From assembly GCF_900473935.1 (NCBI RefSeq), contig NZ_UCNN01000009.1:1-64000 (forward strand): DNA of 64,000 bases. Direction: 5' to 3'. The notes below the pieces were generated by a model. The model saw only the letters and a program-made list of their open reading frames with translations. It made no database searches and was not told where the DNA came from. Positions 374-13,476 of the stretch are shown piece by piece (within the stretch, counting starts at the first letter, position 1; each line of letters begins with the position of its first letter). The position numbers were made by a program, and so were the translations under genes. Origin of the DNA: Synechococcus sp. UW105 (lineage in GTDB: Bacteria > Cyanobacteriota > Cyanobacteriia > PCC-6307 > Cyanobiaceae).

Positions 374-1910
374 GTAGCCATGAACCCTCGAGACGAATCC
401 AAAATTCGCCTGGATTTAACAACATCGATCACCACGTGAGAGCGGCATCCAAATGATCGCGCGTAGGCGCCCATCATTGACTTCTTTGCGACGCTCACGT
501 GGGATAGGAGTAGGTGTATCAACAGCTCGGTGTTCTCTTGCCGTCATCATCTCCATCGAGTCCTGCCAATCGTTCCACAGACACCACTCTTCGCAAACAA
601 GAGATCTCAATCAAGGTTGAACTGGCTTACGGCTGGGGATTCTCTCTTTGCGGCGCCCAGTTTGAGAATCACGCCTATTTCTGTCTGTAGAGCTCGAGCC
701 AGTCCACCGCATGAATCGGCTCTCTCGAGATTGTTGGTCGTGAACTCAGGCCTACCTGACAAGCCAAGGCCCGAAAGGGCTTGTGTCGGCCGTCATGGAT
801 GAATTCGCCAATGGGTTCGGCGTGAGCGGTGTGGATTTCCATCGGGATTAGATCCTTAGGTTTCTTCTAGTGGTTTGAAGGGTCTAGTCGTGGTGCGGAT
901 CACTACCTTCTGGCTGTATGGCAGCAAACATTCCACCTCTCCCGGCGAAACACAGTGTCATCACTTGGCTCAGACTTCTGCTGCGAATGTCTCCGGAGCT
1001 AGCTTCATCATTTCATTTCTATGAAACCAACTTAACCGTAAAGCGTTATTGCCGACAAGAACAGCCCTGGGGCGAAGCCATCAAATCAATCCAAATCATT
1101 TGACGCATATTTAGACCCGCGCGAATATCACAATCAAAACAAAGTCAGCTAGCAAGCGTTTCTCTGACTTCTACATGCCAATTTTAAATATCTATAGAAA
1201 TCCTCATTGGGATCCCACCGCCAAAGCAATGGAGCCGCTGGTTCCACATCAAGCCAGATGCACAGACGAGCCAAAGCCTTGGCAGTGGGCAAGCTCAACC
1301 CAATGCCTGCCAGCCCTACGAAGCCCTGTGCAGCATGACGACAGCAGCTTGCCGACGATTGCAAAGCCAAGCACCATCCGGGCAAGACTCGACTTCTCTA
1401 CCTAAGGCATGATTCATAAAACTCAAAGGCCATGCGGCATCGCAAACTTTGCTGATACCTGGAATTATGTTTGAATATACTCAACCTTATAATTAAACTC
1501 GCCACTGAAGGATGACTAGCAAGTAAGCCCAAATCATGCAGGTCTTTAGTTCATGACTGGGTAGAGAGGTAGACGACGCATTGGCATCAGCTGACGAGGG
1601 AATTCGCTCAGTTGGACACAATTCCATCCCAGCCACCGAGTTGACGTCGAACGATCACGACAACTGGGTGAAACCGATTTAAACAAATGGTTGGAGCAAC
1701 AGTCCTTGCGCCGGTTGCATGGCTTGAATGCTCGAACGAACCCCGAAGGTCATTGTTAAGACTCGGCTGGTTCAGAAGCTGTGCCCAAGCGAAGAGCTCA
1801 CAGCCTTTGACGACTCGCACACGTAGATGCGCCAAGGGATGTGGCGGGATTGAAAAGTTGTGTTGAGCAGCGCTCTCGACAGGCCCAGAGCAGGGGTAGA
1901 TTCTTAAGGA
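374..1910. other. 1.5-kb stretch without a convincing gene
   Basis: Only short open frames occur on both strands (all below about 95 codons). None has a recognisable motif, a plausible ribosome-binding site and a sensible composition together. No tRNA, long repeat or strong hairpin was found by eye. It may hold decayed genes or small RNAs that cannot be recognised without comparison. Confidence 0.5.
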
Positions 1911-2420
1911 ATGGTTAAGGAGGCGGTTGTGACTGATGTCGCGTTATCGATTTTTCTTGTTCTTTCAGGTGTGACGGTGGTGGAGGGAGGTCGCGAATGT
2001 CAAAACAACCAATCACTGATGGGTGAGTACATTTCTCACACCAACTTGATTGAGCTATGTCAAAGCAATGCTGCACGAGCCGGACATGATCTCCAACACG
2101 TGCTCCGTCATGAAATGGTCCATGCCGTTCAAGAAAATCTCAATCTCACAAGAGCCGCGATACCAGAGCCTTTGCTGACTTGGCTAGTGCGCGGCTATCT
2201 AACAGATTCAGAAGTAATGACTGTATTGGCAATGTACGATGAGAAAGATATTGATCAAGAGTTTGAGGCTCGGCTTCTAGCCTTGCTCCCTAATTGGTTG
2301 ATTGGAAGTCTTCTTTGGACAAGTGAGCAGCATCAACGATTTGTCAGTGGCCAGCGAATGCTTCCTGCTCCTTGGGAAATACTTCCTGTTCAAGCAATTG
2401 CATGGGATTATCCTTACTAA
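1911..2420 (+). CDS. Orphan protein with HEMVH zinc-metallopeptidase motif
   Basis: A 169-residue protein. Residues about 8-25 are hydrophobic and look like a signal peptide or anchor. Residues 67-71 read HEMVH, which fits the HExxH motif of zinc metallopeptidases, followed by AVQENLN. A third zinc ligand cannot be fixed by eye; acidic residues around 97-115 are candidates. The middle resembles the picocyanobacterial secreted hypotheticals in which an N-terminal leader is followed by a HExxH helix. It is monocistronic with no same-strand neighbour nearby. ATG start at 1911. Whether it cleaves anything is unknown. Confidence 0.65.
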   Translation: MVKEAVVTDVALSIFLVLSGVTVVEGGRECQNNQSLMGEYISHTNLIELCQSNAARAGHDLQHVLRHEMVHAVQENLNLTRAAIPEPLLTWLVRGYLTDSEVMTVLAMYDEKDIDQEFEARLLALLPNWLIGSLLWTSEQHQRFVSGQRMLPAPWEILPVQAIAWDYPY

Positions 2421-2862
2421 TGTGCTCTAAGTGATTAGTTCTTGGCATTGCAGTCTACCTGTGCTTTGACTATTGCTCTATTGAAGGGGGCATGGCTGGA
2501 AGCCATGGGAGTTTTAAACCGATTCCGCACCGTTTCAGCTATCTGTGATCTGTGGTTCGTCTTCAGGTCGACGTTTACAAGTGAGACTCCTAACGACTGT
2601 TTCGGTCAGCCAGCTCTTGCAGGCTTAACACTCGATCCGCGTTGTCCATACCCAGTGGAAAGTCTTCAGTGTGTCCATATTTGCCTGTCAGCGAGCACAG
2701 AAGAATCGTGGCCACATGCAGCCGCAACGACCGTAGATGCATCATTCACTGAGATGACGAGCTTGTTTGAGCCTGGAACCCATCGCCAACCGCCACGGTG
2801 ATCTAGGCAACCGACAGGATGGATGGGTTTCAACAAGAGTGCCTGCACAGCGCGATCTGTTG
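2421..2862. other. Intergenic stretch, no supported gene
   Basis: An open frame at 2442-2801 begins with TTG and has no recognisable motif or hydrophobic pattern. I see no hairpin with a T-run after the HEMVH gene. Confidence 0.4.
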
Positions 2863-3111
2863 ATGAGCTCTGCAAAAACGGCCCTCACGATTGGTGATCT
2901 GGAGGCCGGCTTCCCCAGCTATTGCGTCGCCCTTCGCACTTTGGTCTCTCAGGGAGCAGACCTCGAAAGAATTCGAAGAACGCGCTGTTGGGATTACTTG
3001 CAGCGCCTCCATACCAGCCTTCCTCGGAAGCATCGCTCGCCTGAAGATCTCATCCGTCGCTATCAGCGCGACCTGCAGCCTTCGCCAATCGCTCAGTCTT
3101 GGCTGTCGTGA
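2863..3111 (+). CDS. DUF3136-like small protein
   Basis: From the ATG at 2863 the frame encodes 82 residues beginning MSSAKTALTIGDLEAG. The pattern TIGDLEA..YxxALRxLxxxG, then RRTxCWxxLxxLHxSLP, then a basic YQRDL tail, matches my memory of the DUF3136 family of small marine Synechococcus/Prochlorococcus proteins. Function unknown. The frame is open further upstream to 2767, but similarity begins at 2863. The internal region RTRCWDYLQRLHTSLP is the best conserved. The gene is isolated in gene-poor sequence and the family assignment comes from memory, not a search. Confidence 0.6.
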   Translation: MSSAKTALTIGDLEAGFPSYCVALRTLVSQGADLERIRRTRCWDYLQRLHTSLPRKHRSPEDLIRRYQRDLQPSPIAQSWLS

Positions 3112-3135
3112 TGGAAAATCAGGTGTTTGATGGCC

Positions 3136-3163
3136 GTCATCCCAAGGCAGTCGTCCCAAGGCA
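3136..3163. repeat. Two-copy 14-base tandem repeat
   Basis: Units 3136-3149 and 3150-3163 differ at one base (CATCCC versus CGTCCC). It sits in non-coding sequence just after the DUF3136-like gene and may be a replication-slippage product. Confidence 0.6.
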
Positions 3164-3922
3164 GCCATCCACGCAACCAAACACTTTGGCCGGTTGGACC
3201 TAATCGACTGAAGTGTTTCGTGTTTACAGCTATACGCAAGGCGTTCTCGTGGATGACGGGTGACGATCGCTTCATTTTGCATTCAGCAACTGTTTTTTCG
3301 AGTGGTGATAGGGATTCCCTACTCCGCCCCAATGAGCGGTTCGCCTCTTGATGGCCGTGTAATGGTGGCTACCTACTATCTGTAACGATGCCTGCAGCAC
3401 TTTGCCAAGCAAATAAGTTGTTTTGAATAGCATCCGTTTGGATGGATCACTCTTTTGCGGGGATGCCAGCCATTCCAATCCACCCGCACAGCATTATTTG
3501 GTGCGACAGGCGGGTCGACTTCCTCAAGTTTCGGGGTAGGGGGCGGGATGCAGCAGCATTGATCATGGAATTTGCCGATGACAAGGAGCTTGGCCTGCCT
3601 GAGCAATATTGAGCATGGAGCACTGAAGGTAGTGCTGGATGGTCTGAATTTCTTCGTTTTTTTGGCTTGAACTTGAAACTGACCGGTTCTCTGAACTCAT
3701 TGCAGCAAAAAATACAGATTGCGCTGGCCTATGTTGGTTGGATTCCTAGATGACGACTGATCAGTCATTTGATTTCAAAGGCTCTTGGGGATATCTACTC
3801 ATTGATTGCCAAAGGTATTTTGGCATACCAATTTGAGGCGTCGGTGTTTTGAAAGAGTAGTCATTGTCACGCAAGCCTCCCTGGCTGAGGTTGAGGATTA
3901 AGCAAGTCACACTCCTTTTGTC

Positions 3923-4497: not shown

Positions 4498-5553
4498 TTG
4501 CGGCGACATAAGCTCATCGCGCGAAGTCTTCTTGATGCTTCTTTGGGCTTTTTCGAACGTTATCTCTCTCTTTGGGTCGGTTTGGCGATTATGGCCGGGG
4601 TTGCTCTTGGCGGGCTGCTCCCTGGCCTTGGGGTAGGTATCGCCTCATTGGAGGCTGCTGGGATCAACCTGCCGATTGCAGTTCTGATCTGGGGAATGAT
4701 TTTCCCGATGATGCTGGCCGTGGACTTCTCATCGATTGGTGGAATCTCTCAGCAACCGCGTGGTCTTCTGATTACAGCTGCGGTCAATTGGCTGATTAAG
4801 CCCCTCACCATGACAGCCCTGGCTTGGCTGTTCATTCGCGGCCTCTTTTCCGCCTGGATACCGGAAGCGATCGGTCAGGAGTACGTGGCCGGAATGATTC
4901 TTCTTGGGGTCGCACCCTGCACTGCAATGGTGTTCGTGTGGAGTCGCTTGAGTGATGGCGACCCCAACTACACCCTTGTACAGGTGGCGGTGAATGACTT
5001 GATCATGGTGTTCGCTTTCGCACCCATTGCTGCACTCTTGCTCGGTGTATCGGATGTGCTTGTGCCTTGGGACACAATGCTCACAGCGGTAGGGTTGTTC
5101 GTTGTTGTTCCACTGGTGGCCGGTTGGTTGACCCGACTGTGTCTGCGTAGCAGCCGCAGAATTGAGCACTTGGAAGCTCGACTCAAACCGCTGGCGATGA
5201 CAGCTCTGATCGCCACTGTTTTCTTGCTGTTTGTGGTGCAAGCCCAGGCGATTCTTGCCAATCCGCTGGCAATTGTGTTGATCGCAATTCCACTAACTCT
5301 TCAGACCTATCTGATCTTCTGGATCACGGCCTCTTGGATGCGTTTTGCAGGACAACGTCGCTCGATCGCGGCCCCCGGCGCCATGATCGGAGCCTCCAAT
5401 TTCTTTGAGTTGGCAGTTGCAGTGGCGATCAGTTTGTTTGGATTGAATTCAGGAGCGGCGCTTGCCACCGTGGTGGGAGTGCTGGTTGAGGTGCCAGTGA
5501 TGTTGTCGCTCGTGGCGATTGCCAATCGCAACCAACGCTTGTTTCCCAATTGA
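4498..5553 (+). CDS. ACR3-family arsenite efflux permease
   Basis: An inner-membrane exporter of the bile/arsenite/riboflavin superfamily that expels arsenite, and possibly antimonite, using the proton gradient. The 351-residue length and about ten hydrophobic segments fit ACR3. Two residues essential in characterised ACR3 proteins are visible: the Cys of the [11 protein letters not shown] motif (Cys141) and the Glu of [10 protein letters not shown] (Glu304). The start used is TTG 4498, preceded closely by GGTGGAGG; no in-frame ATG lies near the N-terminus, so the exact start is uncertain. No arsR or arsC is adjacent. With chrA 356 bases downstream it forms a small oxyanion-export locus. Confidence 0.9.
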
Positions 5554-5909
5554 GATTCAGTAACGCTATTATTAAAACAACTGCGCGTGTTCCGACTCGA
5601 ATACTTAATGCTGAGTCAACCCAGGTTGATGCCAACCTGGGCGTCTGAGCTAGACGGATGAACTGAATTTACCTCCTGTTAATGATCTCTGCTCAACGCG
5701 GCATTGATGTCGCTTAGGTTTCAGCGGTGACTCCTCGATCAAAAGATGGTTCTCGTTTATCTTCCCTCAAAGAAATTAATAGCGAATGATCTTGATTGTT
5801 CGAGAACAATGTTTAGAGGTTTTACGGGATGGTGAGTGGGGGGTGTGTTCTACGCATCCGACGGTCTGACTTGGCCTTAATAGCGTCTTGAGGAGAAGTT
5901 TGTTCCGTC
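5554..5909. other. Gap between arsenite and chromate transporters
   Basis: No gene is apparent. It holds one 8-base hairpin (listed separately) and AT-rich sequence likely to contain the chrA promoter, though no confident -35/-10 pair can be chosen. Confidence 0.4.
5620..5641 (+). terminator. Hairpin downstream of the ACR3 gene
   Basis: CCCAGGTT (5620-5627) and AACCTGGG (5634-5641) form a perfect 8-bp stem with a 6-base loop, 67 bases past the ACR3 stop. A T-run is lacking, so intrinsic termination would be weak. Confidence 0.4.
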
Positions 5910-7094
5910 ATGCCTGCCCTACTGGAGGTGTTTCTTCAGTTTTTTGTATTGGGTTCCACGTCCTTCGGGGGACCAGTTGCGCACCTTGGCTACTTCCATG
6001 AGCGCTTTGTGCAGCGCGAGCGTTGGATCACGCCTGAGGCCTATGCCGACCTGGTTGCGCTCTGTCAGCTGTTGCCAGGTCCTTCGAGTTCTCAGGTGGG
6101 TATGGGCCTGGGTCTGATTAGGGCCGGCTGGCTTGGGGGGCTGGCGGCCTGGATTGGATTCACATTGCCGTCTGCTGTGTTGATGGTGCTGGCGGCCGCC
6201 CTACTGATGGCCCATCCCACTTGGATTGAAGGTGGCTGGCTGCAAGGCCTGCTGGTGGCCGCTGTAGCCGTGGTAGCACAAGCTGTTCTTTCCCTTCAGC
6301 GAAAACTCGCGCCTGATCGGCAGCGGGCCAGCGTGATGGTTGTGGCAGCTGTTCTGGTGCTGCTGGCGCCTCGAGCCTGGGCTCAGGTGCTGGTCCTGGT
6401 GTTGGGTGGCCTCGTGGGTTTGTTATTGCTCACGCCACCTGGCCAGGAGCCTTCGGCACCTGAACGTCTCATTCTTCCGCTTCAGCGCTCAGTGGCCGTG
6501 GTTTTGCTTGGATTGGCGGTGGTGCTGTTCATGGGGCTGCCTTGGCTCTCAGCCATCGCCAGGCCGCTTGTTGTGCAGCAGCTCAGTGGATTTGTGCGCA
6601 CAGGATCCTTAGTGTTTGGCGGCGGTCATGTGGTGCTGCCTCTCTTGGAACAAGCGCTTGTGCCAAGCGGTTGGATCGATCTGGAGCAGTTTTTAGCGGG
6701 TTACGGCGCAGCTCAGGCGGTGCCGGGGCCGATGTTTAGTTTCGCGGCTTTTCTTGGCTTTAATCTGCAGCCTGGGCTTGAGGGTATCGCCGGTTCTGTG
6801 CTGGCACTCATCGCTCTCTATTGCCCTTCCTTCTTGCTGCTCGGAGGGATCCTGCCCTTCTGGAGCGATCCTGGCCGTCTCCGCACGATGCGTCGCGTCA
6901 TGCTCGGGATCAATGCTTCCGTGGTGGGCATCCTGCTAGCTGCCTTATTTCAGCCCGTCTGGCAAGCGGGGATCAGAAGCAGTCTTGAGTTGAGCTTGGC
7001 ATTGGTGGCTTTTTTGCTGTTGGTGTGTTGGCGTCAGCCGGCCTGGCGTGTAGTGCTGTTTTGTGCCGTGGTGGGCGGATTGACCCTTTCGTGA
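5910..7094 (+). CDS. chrA: Chromate transporter, long-chain ChrA
   Basis: A membrane chromate exporter of the CHR family that pumps chromate out in exchange for protons or via the membrane potential. The 394 residues contain two CHR halves. The N-half has GSTSFGGPVAHLGYFHERFV (about 16-35) and LPGP (55-58); the C-half has VFGGGHVVLPLLE, AVPGP and an array of hydrophobic helices. GAGGAG about 12 bases before ATG 5910 gives a good start. Its neighbour is the ACR3 exporter on the same strand. Export of chromate specifically is inferred from the family; some ChrA homologues carry sulfate-like anions. Confidence 0.92.
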   Translation: MPALLEVFLQFFVLGSTSFGGPVAHLGYFHERFVQRERWITPEAYADLVALCQLLPGPSSSQVGMGLGLIRAGWLGGLAAWIGFTLPSAVLMVLAAALLMAHPTWIEGGWLQGLLVAAVAVVAQAVLSLQRKLAPDRQRASVMVVAAVLVLLAPRAWAQVLVLVLGGLVGLLLLTPPGQEPSAPERLILPLQRSVAVVLLGLAVVLFMGLPWLSAIARPLVVQQLSGFVRTGSLVFGGGHVVLPLLEQALVPSGWIDLEQFLAGYGAAQAVPGPMFSFAAFLGFNLQPGLEGIAGSVLALIALYCPSFLLLGGILPFWSDPGRLRTMRRVMLGINASVVGILLAALFQPVWQAGIRSSLELSLALVAFLLLVCWRQPAWRVVLFCAVVGGLTLS

Positions 7095-10173: not shown

Positions 10174-11205
10174 TTAATCGTAAGGATATGCATTAGGGAC
10201 AAAGAACTGTTCATTCATTGGCGGCCTGGTGTACGCCCCTTGCTGCGGACGATCCGGCAACGTAATCGCTGCTGGGGTCATGTCTTTCCAGGGAACCTTA
10301 CTGAGAACATGGCGCAAACAATTGAGTCTTGCCCTACGCTTATCATCGGCTTCGACCGTAAACCAAGGTGCCTCAGGAATGTTGGTGTGTGCAAACATCG
10401 CATCCTTCGCTTTCGAAAATTCAACCCAGCGATTGCGCGCCTCAAGGTCCATCGGGCTGAGCTTCCAGCGCCTTGTGGGATCATCAATCCGGGATTGAAA
10501 ACGAACCTCCTGCTCCGTATCACTGACAGAAAACCAATACTTGAGCAAAAGGATGCCGCTGTTCACAAGCATCTGCTCAAACCGAGGACAATCATCGAGA
10601 AACTGTTCAACTTGTTCTTCTGAACAGAAGCCCATGACCCGCTCCACTCCTGCGCGGTTGTACCAGCTGCGATCAAAGACGACGATCTCACCAGCGCTTG
10701 GGAAATGCTCCACGTAGCGCTGGAAATACCACTGTGTTTTTTGTTGGTCAGACGGTGTTCCCAGAGCGACCACACGGCAGCCCCTGGGATTCATCGGCTC
10801 AGTCAAACGTTTAATCGTGCCACCCTTGCCTGCGGCATCGCGCCCCTCAAACACCACGATGATGCGGAAGCCTGTGGCTTTCACCCAGTACTGCATCTTC
10901 ACCAGATCGGATTGCAGTCGTTCCAGTTCAGACTCGTAGATTTTCTTCTTGAGCCTCTTCCTTTGGCGGCTCCCAGTCTCCAAACGATCGTCGAGACGTT
11001 CAGAAGAGTGATGAAGTTCCTGTTCGCTGCCATCGAGCCCAGCGATCATCGTTTCTGAAAGTTTGATCCGCTGGTCATCGTCTTGATGGGGCTGGTGCCT
11101 GGAGGGGTGTTTGTGCTGATCCTTCTTAGCCATTGTCTTCTTACTCATTGTCTTCTCACTCATTGTCTGCTTGCACGTGTTGCGAAGCCTGACTGGATGC
11201 GCCAT
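10174..11205 (-). CDS. ppk2: Polyphosphate kinase 2
   Basis: It transfers phosphate between polyphosphate and nucleotides, usually in the direction of NTP or NDP formation. The 343 residues have a basic low-complexity N-terminus, Walker A GRDAAGKGG (121-129), the family motif DRSWYNRAGVERVMGF with its Asp (178), and a C-terminal region with DPTRRWKLSPMD. This is the single-domain PPK2 architecture. The start is uncertain: ATG 11205 is followed by three further in-frame ATGs 15 bases apart (11163, 11148, 11133). It lies 58 bases downstream of a histidine kinase gene on the same strand and may be co-transcribed with that two-component pair. Confidence 0.93.
   Translation of the reverse strand: MAHPVRLRNTCKQTMSEKTMSKKTMAKKDQHKHPSRHQPHQDDDQRIKLSETMIAGLDGSEQELHHSSERLDDRLETGSRQRKRLKKKIYESELERLQSDLVKMQYWVKATGFRIIVVFEGRDAAGKGGTIKRLTEPMNPRGCRVVALGTPSDQQKTQWYFQRYVEHFPSAGEIVVFDRSWYNRAGVERVMGFCSEEQVEQFLDDCPRFEQMLVNSGILLLKYWFSVSDTEQEVRFQSRIDDPTRRWKLSPMDLEARNRWVEFSKAKDAMFAHTNIPEAPWFTVEADDKRRARLNCLRHVLSKVPWKDMTPAAITLPDRPQQGAYTRPPMNEQFFVPNAYPYD
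11131..11175 (-). repeat. 15-base tandem repeat carrying three in-frame ATGs
   Basis: On the minus strand a 15-base unit encoding M(S/A)(E/K)KT is repeated with ATGs at 11163, 11148 and 11133. Copies differ by a few bases. It falls at the N-terminus of PPK2 and multiplies potential start sites. Confidence 0.7.
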
Positions 11206-11263
11206 CGCGTCAAAGGACTTCCTGTCTCTATCTGACCAACAGGATCAACTCCAGTACGGGATC

Positions 11264-12601
11264 TCAGCTTTTCTCAACCATTGGCAAGACAGCTGCCGCT
11301 GGTCGCGTGGGCAGATGCAGCCGAATGACAAAGGTGCCCGGGGCATCCCCATCCGCAGATGCGCAACTGATCTGACCGCCGTGGGTGCGAACCACATGAG
11401 CCACGATTGCCAAACCAAGACCGCAGTGCCCTTGTTCACCACGAGATTCATCCAGACGTTGAAACGGCTGCAAAGCCCGTTCCCACTGATGGGCAGGCAT
11501 GCCTTCACCCTGATCCCAAACTTCAATCAAAGCTCCATCCGCAACGGATCGAAGTCGAACCACAACAGGCGCCAGGCCATAGGTGAAGGCGTTATCGATC
11601 AGATTGCCAACAGCGCGGCCAAGGGCAACCGGCTTCACGCAAGCCAGAACAGGCTGGAGATCGAGCTGGAGCCGTTCAGGCGGGTGACTGGTGGAGACTT
11701 CCGCAAGCAGCTGATCAAGGGGAAGGTCCACAGGGTCTTCACCATCGGCACCACCTGCAAACAGGAGAAACTGTCCAGTGATGCGCTCCAACGATTGGAG
11801 ATCGCCGGCGCAACGATCTCGATCCTCAGAGGAGAGTGCCGGCATCGACAGCCTGAACTGCAAACGCGTGATTGGGGCCCGCAAATCATGGGCAATGCCG
11901 GCCAACATGGTGTCTCGGTCGCGGCGGTTGGCCGCCAGGCGATCGAGCATGGCATTGAAATGATGGGTGATGCGCTGGACTTCGGGTGCTCCTCTTGCAG
12001 GAACGGCATCAGGGTCGTCTCCATCGCCGACAAGAGCTAACGCCCTCTCAAGTCCGCGCAAAGGCCGTTCCACTTCAAGAAGCAGAAACAACGCCCCACA
12101 GCTCAAACCAGCACCCAGAAGCGAAAGGAAGAGCAACGTCGGTTCCGGCGGCCAAGCCATTGGAGAACGAAGTGACACCCTGAGCCAGATCGGTTCCAGG
12201 GGCGAAATCAGCTCGACCCAAACGTCCCAACTGCGACCATTGGCGACCACCATCGGGCAATGGGCTAGACGGCGGCAGAGTTCGGCTTGAAGCGCCTTCG
12301 CCTGCTGAGCCAGAGCGGGAGACAGCGGGGACTGGCTTGAAGGCTGACGCACCACAGCCAGATCCAGACCGGTCAGTTCTGAGACCAAATGGGGTGGATA
12401 TCGCTCAAGTGCGAGCTCGGCAAGACGGACATTGAGAGCAAGGTCACGGCCCAGTTGCACCGTCTGCAACGACTCCACCTGACGACCGAACAGCACCTGA
12501 AGCAGAAGCAGACAGAGCGCCCAACTGCCAAAACCGAGACCGCACCATCCCAGCAGCGCTCGAAGCACAAACGGCCAGGGGCGCCGCGAGGTCATCGACA
12601 A
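11264..12601 (-). CDS. Two-component sensor histidine kinase, EnvZ-like layout
   Basis: A membrane sensor kinase of 445 residues. It has TM1 at about 12-37, a periplasmic loop of about 115 residues, TM2 at about 155-175 and a HAMP linker to about 225. HisKA follows with GIAHDLRAPITR (phospho-acceptor His238), then HATPase_c with N-box GNLIDNAFTYG (Asn333, Asn337), G1 DQGEGMP and G2 GLGLAI. The periplasmic domain has two cysteines but no recognised ligand fold. The cognate regulator lies just upstream (7 bases) on the same strand and ppk2 just downstream. Signal unknown. Confidence 0.92.
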   Translation of the reverse strand: MSMTSRRPWPFVLRALLGWCGLGFGSWALCLLLLQVLFGRQVESLQTVQLGRDLALNVRLAELALERYPPHLVSELTGLDLAVVRQPSSQSPLSPALAQQAKALQAELCRRLAHCPMVVANGRSWDVWVELISPLEPIWLRVSLRSPMAWPPEPTLLFLSLLGAGLSCGALFLLLEVERPLRGLERALALVGDGDDPDAVPARGAPEVQRITHHFNAMLDRLAANRRDRDTMLAGIAHDLRAPITRLQFRLSMPALSSEDRDRCAGDLQSLERITGQFLLFAGGADGEDPVDLPLDQLLAEVSTSHPPERLQLDLQPVLACVKPVALGRAVGNLIDNAFTYGLAPVVVRLRSVADGALIEVWDQGEGMPAHQWERALQPFQRLDESRGEQGHCGLGLAIVAHVVRTHGGQISCASADGDAPGTFVIRLHLPTRPAAAVLPMVEKS

Positions 12602-12607
12602 GCGCCC

Positions 12608-13333
12608 TCAACGCGTCCGAGGTGTCCCATCAGGCACGAACACATAGCCGTAGCCCCAAACGGTCTGGATATAGCGCGGCCGCGTCGGATCTGGTTCCAC
12701 GAGTTTGCGAACCCGAGACACCTGCACATCCATGCTGCGACTATCGGTTTCGCAACCCGGGCCACGGGCAAGCTCGATCAAACGCTCCCGTGACAACGGT
12801 CGATGAGGGTGCTGTGCGAAGGCCGCCAAAAGACTGAACTCACCACTGGTGATCACGGCAGGAACACCCGAACGACTGAGGGTGCGGGCTGCGAGATTGA
12901 GCACATTCTCACCGAAACTGACATCGCCACCTTCTGCCACTGGCGTGCCAGCCGGTAGAGCACTCCGACGCCGCAGAACCGCCTCAATGCGGGCAGAGAG
13001 CTCACGCGGAAGGAAAGGTTTACCAAGGTAATCATCGGCCCCCTGCTCAAGGCCAATGATGCGATCGACGCCTTCACCGCGGGCAGTGAGCATCACGATC
13101 GGCAGATCATCTCCGCCATCTCGCAATCGGCGCAGAGCGGTGAGACCATCATCCCCTGGCATCATCAGATCCAGCACCACCAAATCGGGTCGCTGGAACT
13201 CCAATCTGGCCTCAAACTGCTTGACATCACTGAGGCAACGCACGTCGTAGCCCTGGTCGATCAGATAGGTACCAACCATCTGCCTCAGTTCGGGGTCATC
13301 ATCCACAACCCAGATCATTGATGCACGCGCCAT
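12608..13333 (-). CDS. OmpR-family response regulator
   Basis: Receiver plus winged-helix DNA-binding regulator. With the start at ATG 13333 (MARASMIWVVDDD), the acidic pocket is at residues 11-13, the phospho-acceptor is Asp55 (LVVLDLMMPGDDG) and the conserved Lys is Lys105 (LGKPFLPREL). The effector domain ends with the OmpR signature SRVRKLVE..RPRYIQTVWGYGYVF. An upstream ATG at 13411 is in frame but adds an unconserved Ser/Pro stretch. It is followed after 6 bases by its kinase. Targets cannot be read from the sequence. Confidence 0.92.
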   Translation of the reverse strand: MARASMIWVVDDDPELRQMVGTYLIDQGYDVRCLSDVKQFEARLEFQRPDLVVLDLMMPGDDGLTALRRLRDGGDDLPIVMLTARGEGVDRIIGLEQGADDYLGKPFLPRELSARIEAVLRRRSALPAGTPVAEGGDVSFGENVLNLAARTLSRSGVPAVITSGEFSLLAAFAQHPHRPLSRERLIELARGPGCETDSRSMDVQVSRVRKLVEPDPTRPRYIQTVWGYGYVFVPDGTPRTR

Positions 13334-13476
13334 GGCGACCGGGAACGACGACGACTGAGGAGATCGTATGCAGCGAGATGACGGCTGTCCGCAGAAATTG
13401 GACCCTGTCACAGCTCACAGCACTCCGGTCATGATTAAGTCATGACCTTCCCAAAGAAACTCCATAGGCTGGATCA

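Follow-up and report, generated by a model that had tools for sequence, protein, structure and literature searches.

A candidate gluzincin-type metallopeptidase with a Pho-box-like repeat ahead of its start codon in Synechococcus sp. UW105

We propose that a gene in a 64,000-nucleotide window of the 2.66 Mb genome of Synechococcus sp. UW105 (the window being the whole stretch of DNA analyzed) encodes a small, gluzincin-like metallopeptidase and is subject to PhoB-type control. From the sequence comparisons, we hold this joint reading to be fairly probable, and the peptidase half taken alone was rated above it. The sequence-only reading of this DNA had pointed to a 169-codon ATG frame with a HEMVH motif at 1911-2420 on the forward strand, and this was borne out, with H67 and H71 of the motif encoded at 2109-2111 and 2121-2123. 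The start codon is probably GTG 1929 and not the upstream ATG 1911, because AAGGAGG (1917-1923, +), by its sequence a probable ribosome-binding site, lies five bases ahead of the GTG, and because the orthologue starts agree: in genome G043 (locus L069), the upstream ATG was out of frame with the protein when the sequence was read by eye, and in genome G228 (L072), an ATG was found at the position matching GTG 1929. The probable coding sequence of this metallopeptidase-like protein is therefore placed at 1929-2420 (+), giving 163 amino acids. The closest named record was that of Synechococcus sp. UW140 (L015), with 97% protein identity, which marks the source as a marine picocyanobacterium. The two genes differ at 12 positions, a small number, of which 7 are synonymous (dS 0.063) and 5 non-synonymous (dN 0.013), giving a dN/dS of about 0.2. 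The pattern is as would be expected under purifying selection, few as the differences are. A spurious open reading frame was ruled out, and the gene was taken as real, because there are few amino-acid changes relative to UW140 and the motif is kept in distant homologues.

The gene had been described as an orphan, and this did not hold. The window protein itself matched 8 of 40 genomes at E 0.01 or better (its own genome counted), and a profile built from 12 members (alignment A2) reached E 0.001 in 140 of the 201 genomes that make up the taxonomic family. The close, window-type copy was patchy: of the genus's 25 genomes, 2 have it. In the collected loci, removal of identical sequences cut the 73 profile matches to 57 distinct members; a further relative, L071, was found later and stands outside the 57, and the profile did not pick up L017, an HExxH protein of the flagellin type. 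Seven residues were invariant in the 57 members, namely C30, H67, E68, H71, Q74, E117, and A120. The HEMVH motif (2109-2123, +), followed by Q74, thus belongs to an HExxHxxQ signature kept in every member, and about 50 residues further on there is an ExEA motif, which in the window protein reads EFEAR (2259-2273, +; E117 in 57/57, E119 in 56/57, A120 in 57/57, and R121 in 49/57). Loss of the motif in relatives, which had been named as an observation that would refute the zinc-peptidase reading, was looked for and not seen, although this retention is somewhat overstated because the members were gathered with a profile that itself holds HExxH.

This layout, HExxHxxQ and a later ExEA, is suggestive of the gluzincin zinc peptidases. 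The corresponding second motif of M48 peptidases reads ExxAD, and on that pattern E117 would be the third ligand, making EFEAR its probable source. The gene product may then be a single-domain metallopeptidase of about 163 amino acids, in which a zinc ion would be held by H67, H71, and a glutamate, probably E117, of the ExEAR motif further on, with E68 activating water. When the window protein was compared with Pfam and NCBIfam, no model reached its cut-off, and calling the class unknown was fair in that sense, in spite of the many relatives. The matches below the gathering cut-off included Peptidase_M76 (PF09768; 17.2 bits against a cut-off of 25.2), eCIS_core (16.6 against 22), DUF6647 (13.8 against 24.1), and SprT-like (13.7 against 25.6); DUF6782 was absent from the Pfam matches of this protein. 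Among 27 members, weak matches were to M76 in 12 (at E 0.01 or better), DUF6782 in three, Zn_peptidase_2 in two, and SprT in one. BepA, an M48 peptidase, topped the PDB list at E 0.1, and in the alignment HExxHxxQ was common to both. What M76, M48 (BepA), other HExxH gluzincins, and DUF6782 share with the window family is an HExxH motif with a conserved glutamate motif after it; the matches cover mainly the HExxH region, and the window protein stays under the M76 cut-off.

An HExxH fold may also serve a non-proteolytic role, e.g., as a hydroxylase-like or purely structural metal site, since HExxH alone proves no peptidase. Non-peptidase models did appear among the weak matches, with eCIS_core in 3 of the 27 members and the aKG-HExxH peptide hydroxylase model in one of them, at 8.1e-4. 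We give little credence to this explanation, as the catalytic glutamate E68 is invariant (57/57) and the weak Pfam matches went mostly to peptidase families. Structure prediction was attempted with a four-row alignment (window, UW140, L016, and Syn5; L071 was left out of the folding because it was misaligned at the C-terminus), and the AlphaFold model had a mean pLDDT of 57.6. In this low-confidence model, HExxH and ExEAR both lay in helices. Searches with the same poor model gave no match at E 0.001 in Foldseek, no Z of 5 or more in VIA-align, and no peptidase in either; the CARD domains and helical bundles listed by the fold searches were set aside on account of the model quality.

The label of a small secreted, leader-bearing zinc peptidase divides into a part that stands, the peptidase-like active site as judged by sequence (H67, E68, H71, Q74, and E117, all 57/57), and a part that lacks support, the secretion. 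The N-terminus counted from GTG 1929 (MTDVALSIFLVLSGV) is hydrophobic and has no positive n-region, and in alignment A2, inspected by eye, it aligned with the mature-part helix 1 of signal-peptide-bearing paralogues. No classical signal peptide was evident in the 163-amino-acid protein when the alignment and the sequence were read by eye. There are also two conserved cysteines, C30 and C50 (1998-2060, +), found in 57/57 and 55/57 members, respectively, the remaining two having gaps at C50. They may form a disulfide that braces the fold, and since both are near-invariant, an oxidizing compartment is plausible for the protein; it is this pair that would suggest a location outside the cytoplasm.

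Next, the region ahead of the start codon was compared. A tandem repeat, CTTAAGGA-atg-GTTAAGGA, occupies 1903-1921 (no strand assigned), with TTAA-N7-TTAA at 1904-1918, and it is listed as Pho-box-like on the basis of clade conservation and profile rank. In a quick tree, midpoint-rooted and with several long branches, the window protein fell in a clade of 13 with an SH-aLRT support of 98; of its members, five are close (window, UW140, G043, G228, and L016), five come from genomes belonging to the same genus, two from other genomes in the family, and one from the phage S-CREM2. Upstream regions were defined by rule from the codon of the second conserved cysteine, not from verified starts, and reached back at most 400 bases. 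TTAA-N7-TTAA was found near the start codon in 12/12 cellular clade members and was absent from the phage member S-CREM2 and from 44/44 members outside the clade. Other spacings between 0 and 25 were scattered: inside the clade N18 in 3/13 (a 22-bp phase), N11 in one, and N22 in one; outside it N9 and N20 in 1/44 each. The distance from the end of the repeat to the start codon was 6 to 11 bases in ten members and about 20, judged by eye, in L047 and L048, where the start is uncertain. The 12 members with the repeat do not count as independent, because window and UW140 are 97% identical, G006, G010, and G009 are close to one another, and so are G017 and G213; grouping by eye from the tree gave about seven lineages. 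In the 64-kb window the pattern occurred once against 0.08 expected, and YTTAA-N7-TTAA was found at nine places in the whole genome.

The repeat was then set against published Pho boxes. As described in PMC1906773, a cyanobacterial Pho box consists of 8-mers like CTTAACCT, arranged in tandem with linkers of 3 bp and with a TTAA core, and PMC11126600 gives TTAA as the core that PhoB needs, with all three repeats required in Synechocystis. The window site shares with this SphR/PhoB regulon the tandem 8-mers, the 3-bp linker, the TTAA core, and the 11-bp period; it differs in having two clear repeats and not three and in overlapping the ribosome-binding site. With a profile built from 27 distinct rows of Table 1 of PMC1906773, the site ranked 2 of 127964 positions when two repeats were used and 88 of 127942 when three were used, no clear third tandem repeat being found there. 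The same TTAA-N7-TTAA pattern was observed ahead of pstC in G043 and G228, pstS in G228, and ptrA next to pstS in the own genome, all of these genes scoring above their NCBIfam cut-offs; PtrA is described as PhoBR-regulated in PMC11098088. Once the peptidase's own sites were excluded, the pattern lay beside phosphate genes at 3 of the 14 sites examined in sister genomes and at 1 of the 8 examined in the own genome. Seven further places had no locus, and of the three sites in G017 that are identical, one represents the others (L100, L109). Moreover, genome-wide, the pattern was not commoner than a reversed control in five of six genomes. The Pho case therefore rests on conservation, not on counts.

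Two further sites were recorded in this survey. Three tandem TTAA-core repeats in 11-bp phase lie at L084 1501-1550 (own genome, C29:140291-140318), shortly before a 43-amino-acid open reading frame that starts MNAEKQHKK, and they resemble the repeat in front of the peptidase gene. Another set of three tandem TTAA-core repeats (L093; G043, C4:222230-222257) precedes a frame that, by eye, reads like a P-loop kinase.

The position of the window repeat complicates the regulatory reading. At the ribosome-binding site there is no room for the promoter element that, by eye, apparently follows the pstC boxes, and ordinary activation through this repeat is therefore doubtful, although boxes as close as -23 to the first codon are listed in Table 1 of PMC1906773. 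Such a placement would be unusual for PhoB, which may possibly act here as a repressor, or the start site may be a different one. It also suits a different explanation, in which the metallopeptidase is the same but the gene stands outside the phosphate response, its repeat serving as the site of a different OmpR-type response regulator or working at the mRNA level beside the ribosome-binding site: the repeat is ill placed for ordinary activation, its second half overlaps AAGGAGG in window, G043, and G228, and 10 Trans_reg_C proteins are encoded in the own genome (E 1e-10 or better). Against it, the repeat is kept in L016, G006, and G017 with no AAGGAGG overlapping it, the 11-bp phase and TTAA core match the published Pho box, and the same pattern precedes pstC, pstS, and ptrA. 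We regard this explanation as rather unlikely. Under the preferred reading, PhoB would be the protein binding the repeat, with a sign of regulation that may be negative, and the tandem 11-bp-phased TTAA repeat ahead of the start codon would tie the clade to phosphate status; the repeat suggests, without proving it, a role of the gene in phosphate starvation.

The gene had also been portrayed as isolated in a gene-poor region with no neighbor suggestive of a pathway. The stretch is indeed gene-poor, but it is not empty. Downstream, on the forward strand, there are a DUF3136 gene (2884-3072; Pfam PF11334, E 1.9e-28), the gene acr3 for an ACR3 family arsenite efflux transporter (4498-5553; TIGR00832, 362 bits against a cut-off of 282.8), and chrA for a ChrA chromate transporter (5910-7094; TIGR00937, 303 bits against a cut-off of 171.7, and Pfam Chromate_transp). 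A weaker Pho-like repeat, CTTAATAG-cgt-CTTGAGGA, was detected 15 bases before the chrA ATG (5876-5894, +) and is identical in UW140; a match to the three-repeat Pho-box profile, at 5865, is the third best of the window. Having acr3 and chrA nearby fits the phosphate reading, as PMC10119275 places pumps for chromate and arsenate among the phosphorus-related genes of low-phosphorus waters; the ArsB named there may or may not be this ACR3 protein. Elsewhere in the window, a 69-amino-acid frame without a Pfam match was seen in the gene-poor start (140-349, -), and a polyphosphate kinase 2 gene (above its NCBIfam cut-off) lies at 10174-13411 (-) next to a sensor kinase and a response regulator that form an EnvZ/OmpR-like pair.

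The surroundings were different in other clade members. In L016, the peptidase relative stands near a chrA fragment with 79% DNA identity to the window over 594 bases; this contig is binned as an uncultured proteobacterium, yet its chrA fragment looks picocyanobacterial, and it is probably misbinned. In G043 and G228, the gene lies beside 5-oxoprolinase, an ArsP-type permease, a DUF1980 protein, and metal-uptake-like genes, labels that were given by Pfam and NCBIfam for G043, with the zinc-binding protein below its cut-offs, and by eye for G228. At these loci (L069 6542-11693; L072), the ArsP-type permease and the DUF1980 protein were accompanied by a His/Asp-rich protein and a metal ABC binding protein with a Zur-like palindrome. 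Zinc regulation of the peptidase gene was considered and rejected, as a Zur-like palindrome stands by the znuA-like gene and none was seen by eye before the peptidase in G043 or G228. In G006, G017, G010, G009, and G213, the peptidase gene follows four small genes, the first for an ExbB-type protein, and this row adjoins GMC oxidoreductase and cytochrome oxidase genes; the ExbB-type label comes from Pfam for G017, and ExbD-like and TonB-like are guesses from order and length, with no family support. The ExbB-type gene and three small unnamed genes form a conserved row (L060 4053-6450, L061 5923-8296, and also L062, L063, and L066). Gene neighbors thus vary across the clade, while the upstream repeat stays.

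Relatives of the protein were also sought in phages. S-CREM2 was the only phage record matching the window protein, with 38% identity, and its own protein matched three of 50,697 phage records, namely itself and two of Syn5. In Syn5 the relative is gp14, directly ahead of the RNA polymerase gene. Beyond Syn5 itself (L070), scans of viral contigs yielded a single, distant relative (L071, on the same contig as L073). The PHROG family phrog_16003, judged by E-value because PHROGs have no curated cut-off, matched the window protein at 7.3e-9 over residues 18-124 and was matched by all 12 family members scanned, and its profile was found in 49 of the 292 genomes of the phylum; it carries no function, and the window gene differs in being cellular and having an upstream repeat of its own. 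On these relatives, on the 12/12 matches to phrog_16003, and on the patchiness of the close group (2/25 genomes) one could build the view that the gene is mainly a phage-derived accessory with a role in the contest between phage and host, its upstream repeat being a secondary acquisition. We find this very improbable, as the family is far commoner in cells (140/201 genomes) than in phage records (3/50,697), and no phage genes were recognized by eye beside the cellular copies read. Predicted Pho boxes in phage genomes are called unreliable in PMC10976474, a caution for the Pho reading proposed here. Near the peptidase relative in the S-CREM2 record (L018; OR473000.1), genes annotated Cas9/Csn1 (virion protein) and APH-like kinase (virion protein) were noted at 1-1287 and 1553-3820.

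A non-exhaustive literature search, covering few subscription journals, brought up no work that stood out, among the matches listed, dealing with this family or with a comparable peptidase under phosphate control, and likewise no such peptidase was found there as part of the cyanobacterial Pho regulon. The one metallopeptidase passage found in PMC4949707 does not identify this gene, which may well be present under a locus tag in published phosphate-stress gene lists.

Phosphate limits marine picocyanobacteria across large ocean areas. Given the tandem repeat before the start codon, the likeliest role of the metallopeptidase would be limited proteolysis within the phosphate-stress response, probably at the cell envelope. 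More tentatively, and with somewhat less than even confidence, we suggest that it could represent a new arm of that response, in which a small PhoB-controlled envelope metallopeptidase trims envelope proteins when phosphate runs out, in picocyanobacteria where its surroundings shift (acr3-chrA, metal uptake, or the ExbB-led row adjoining a second terminal oxidase), one relative being found in a cyanophage. Should the proposed reading hold, a family without a curated name would gain a likely chemistry, a likely trigger could be assigned to one of its branches, and regulated proteolysis would join a phosphate response that has so far been framed mostly as transporters and phosphatases.
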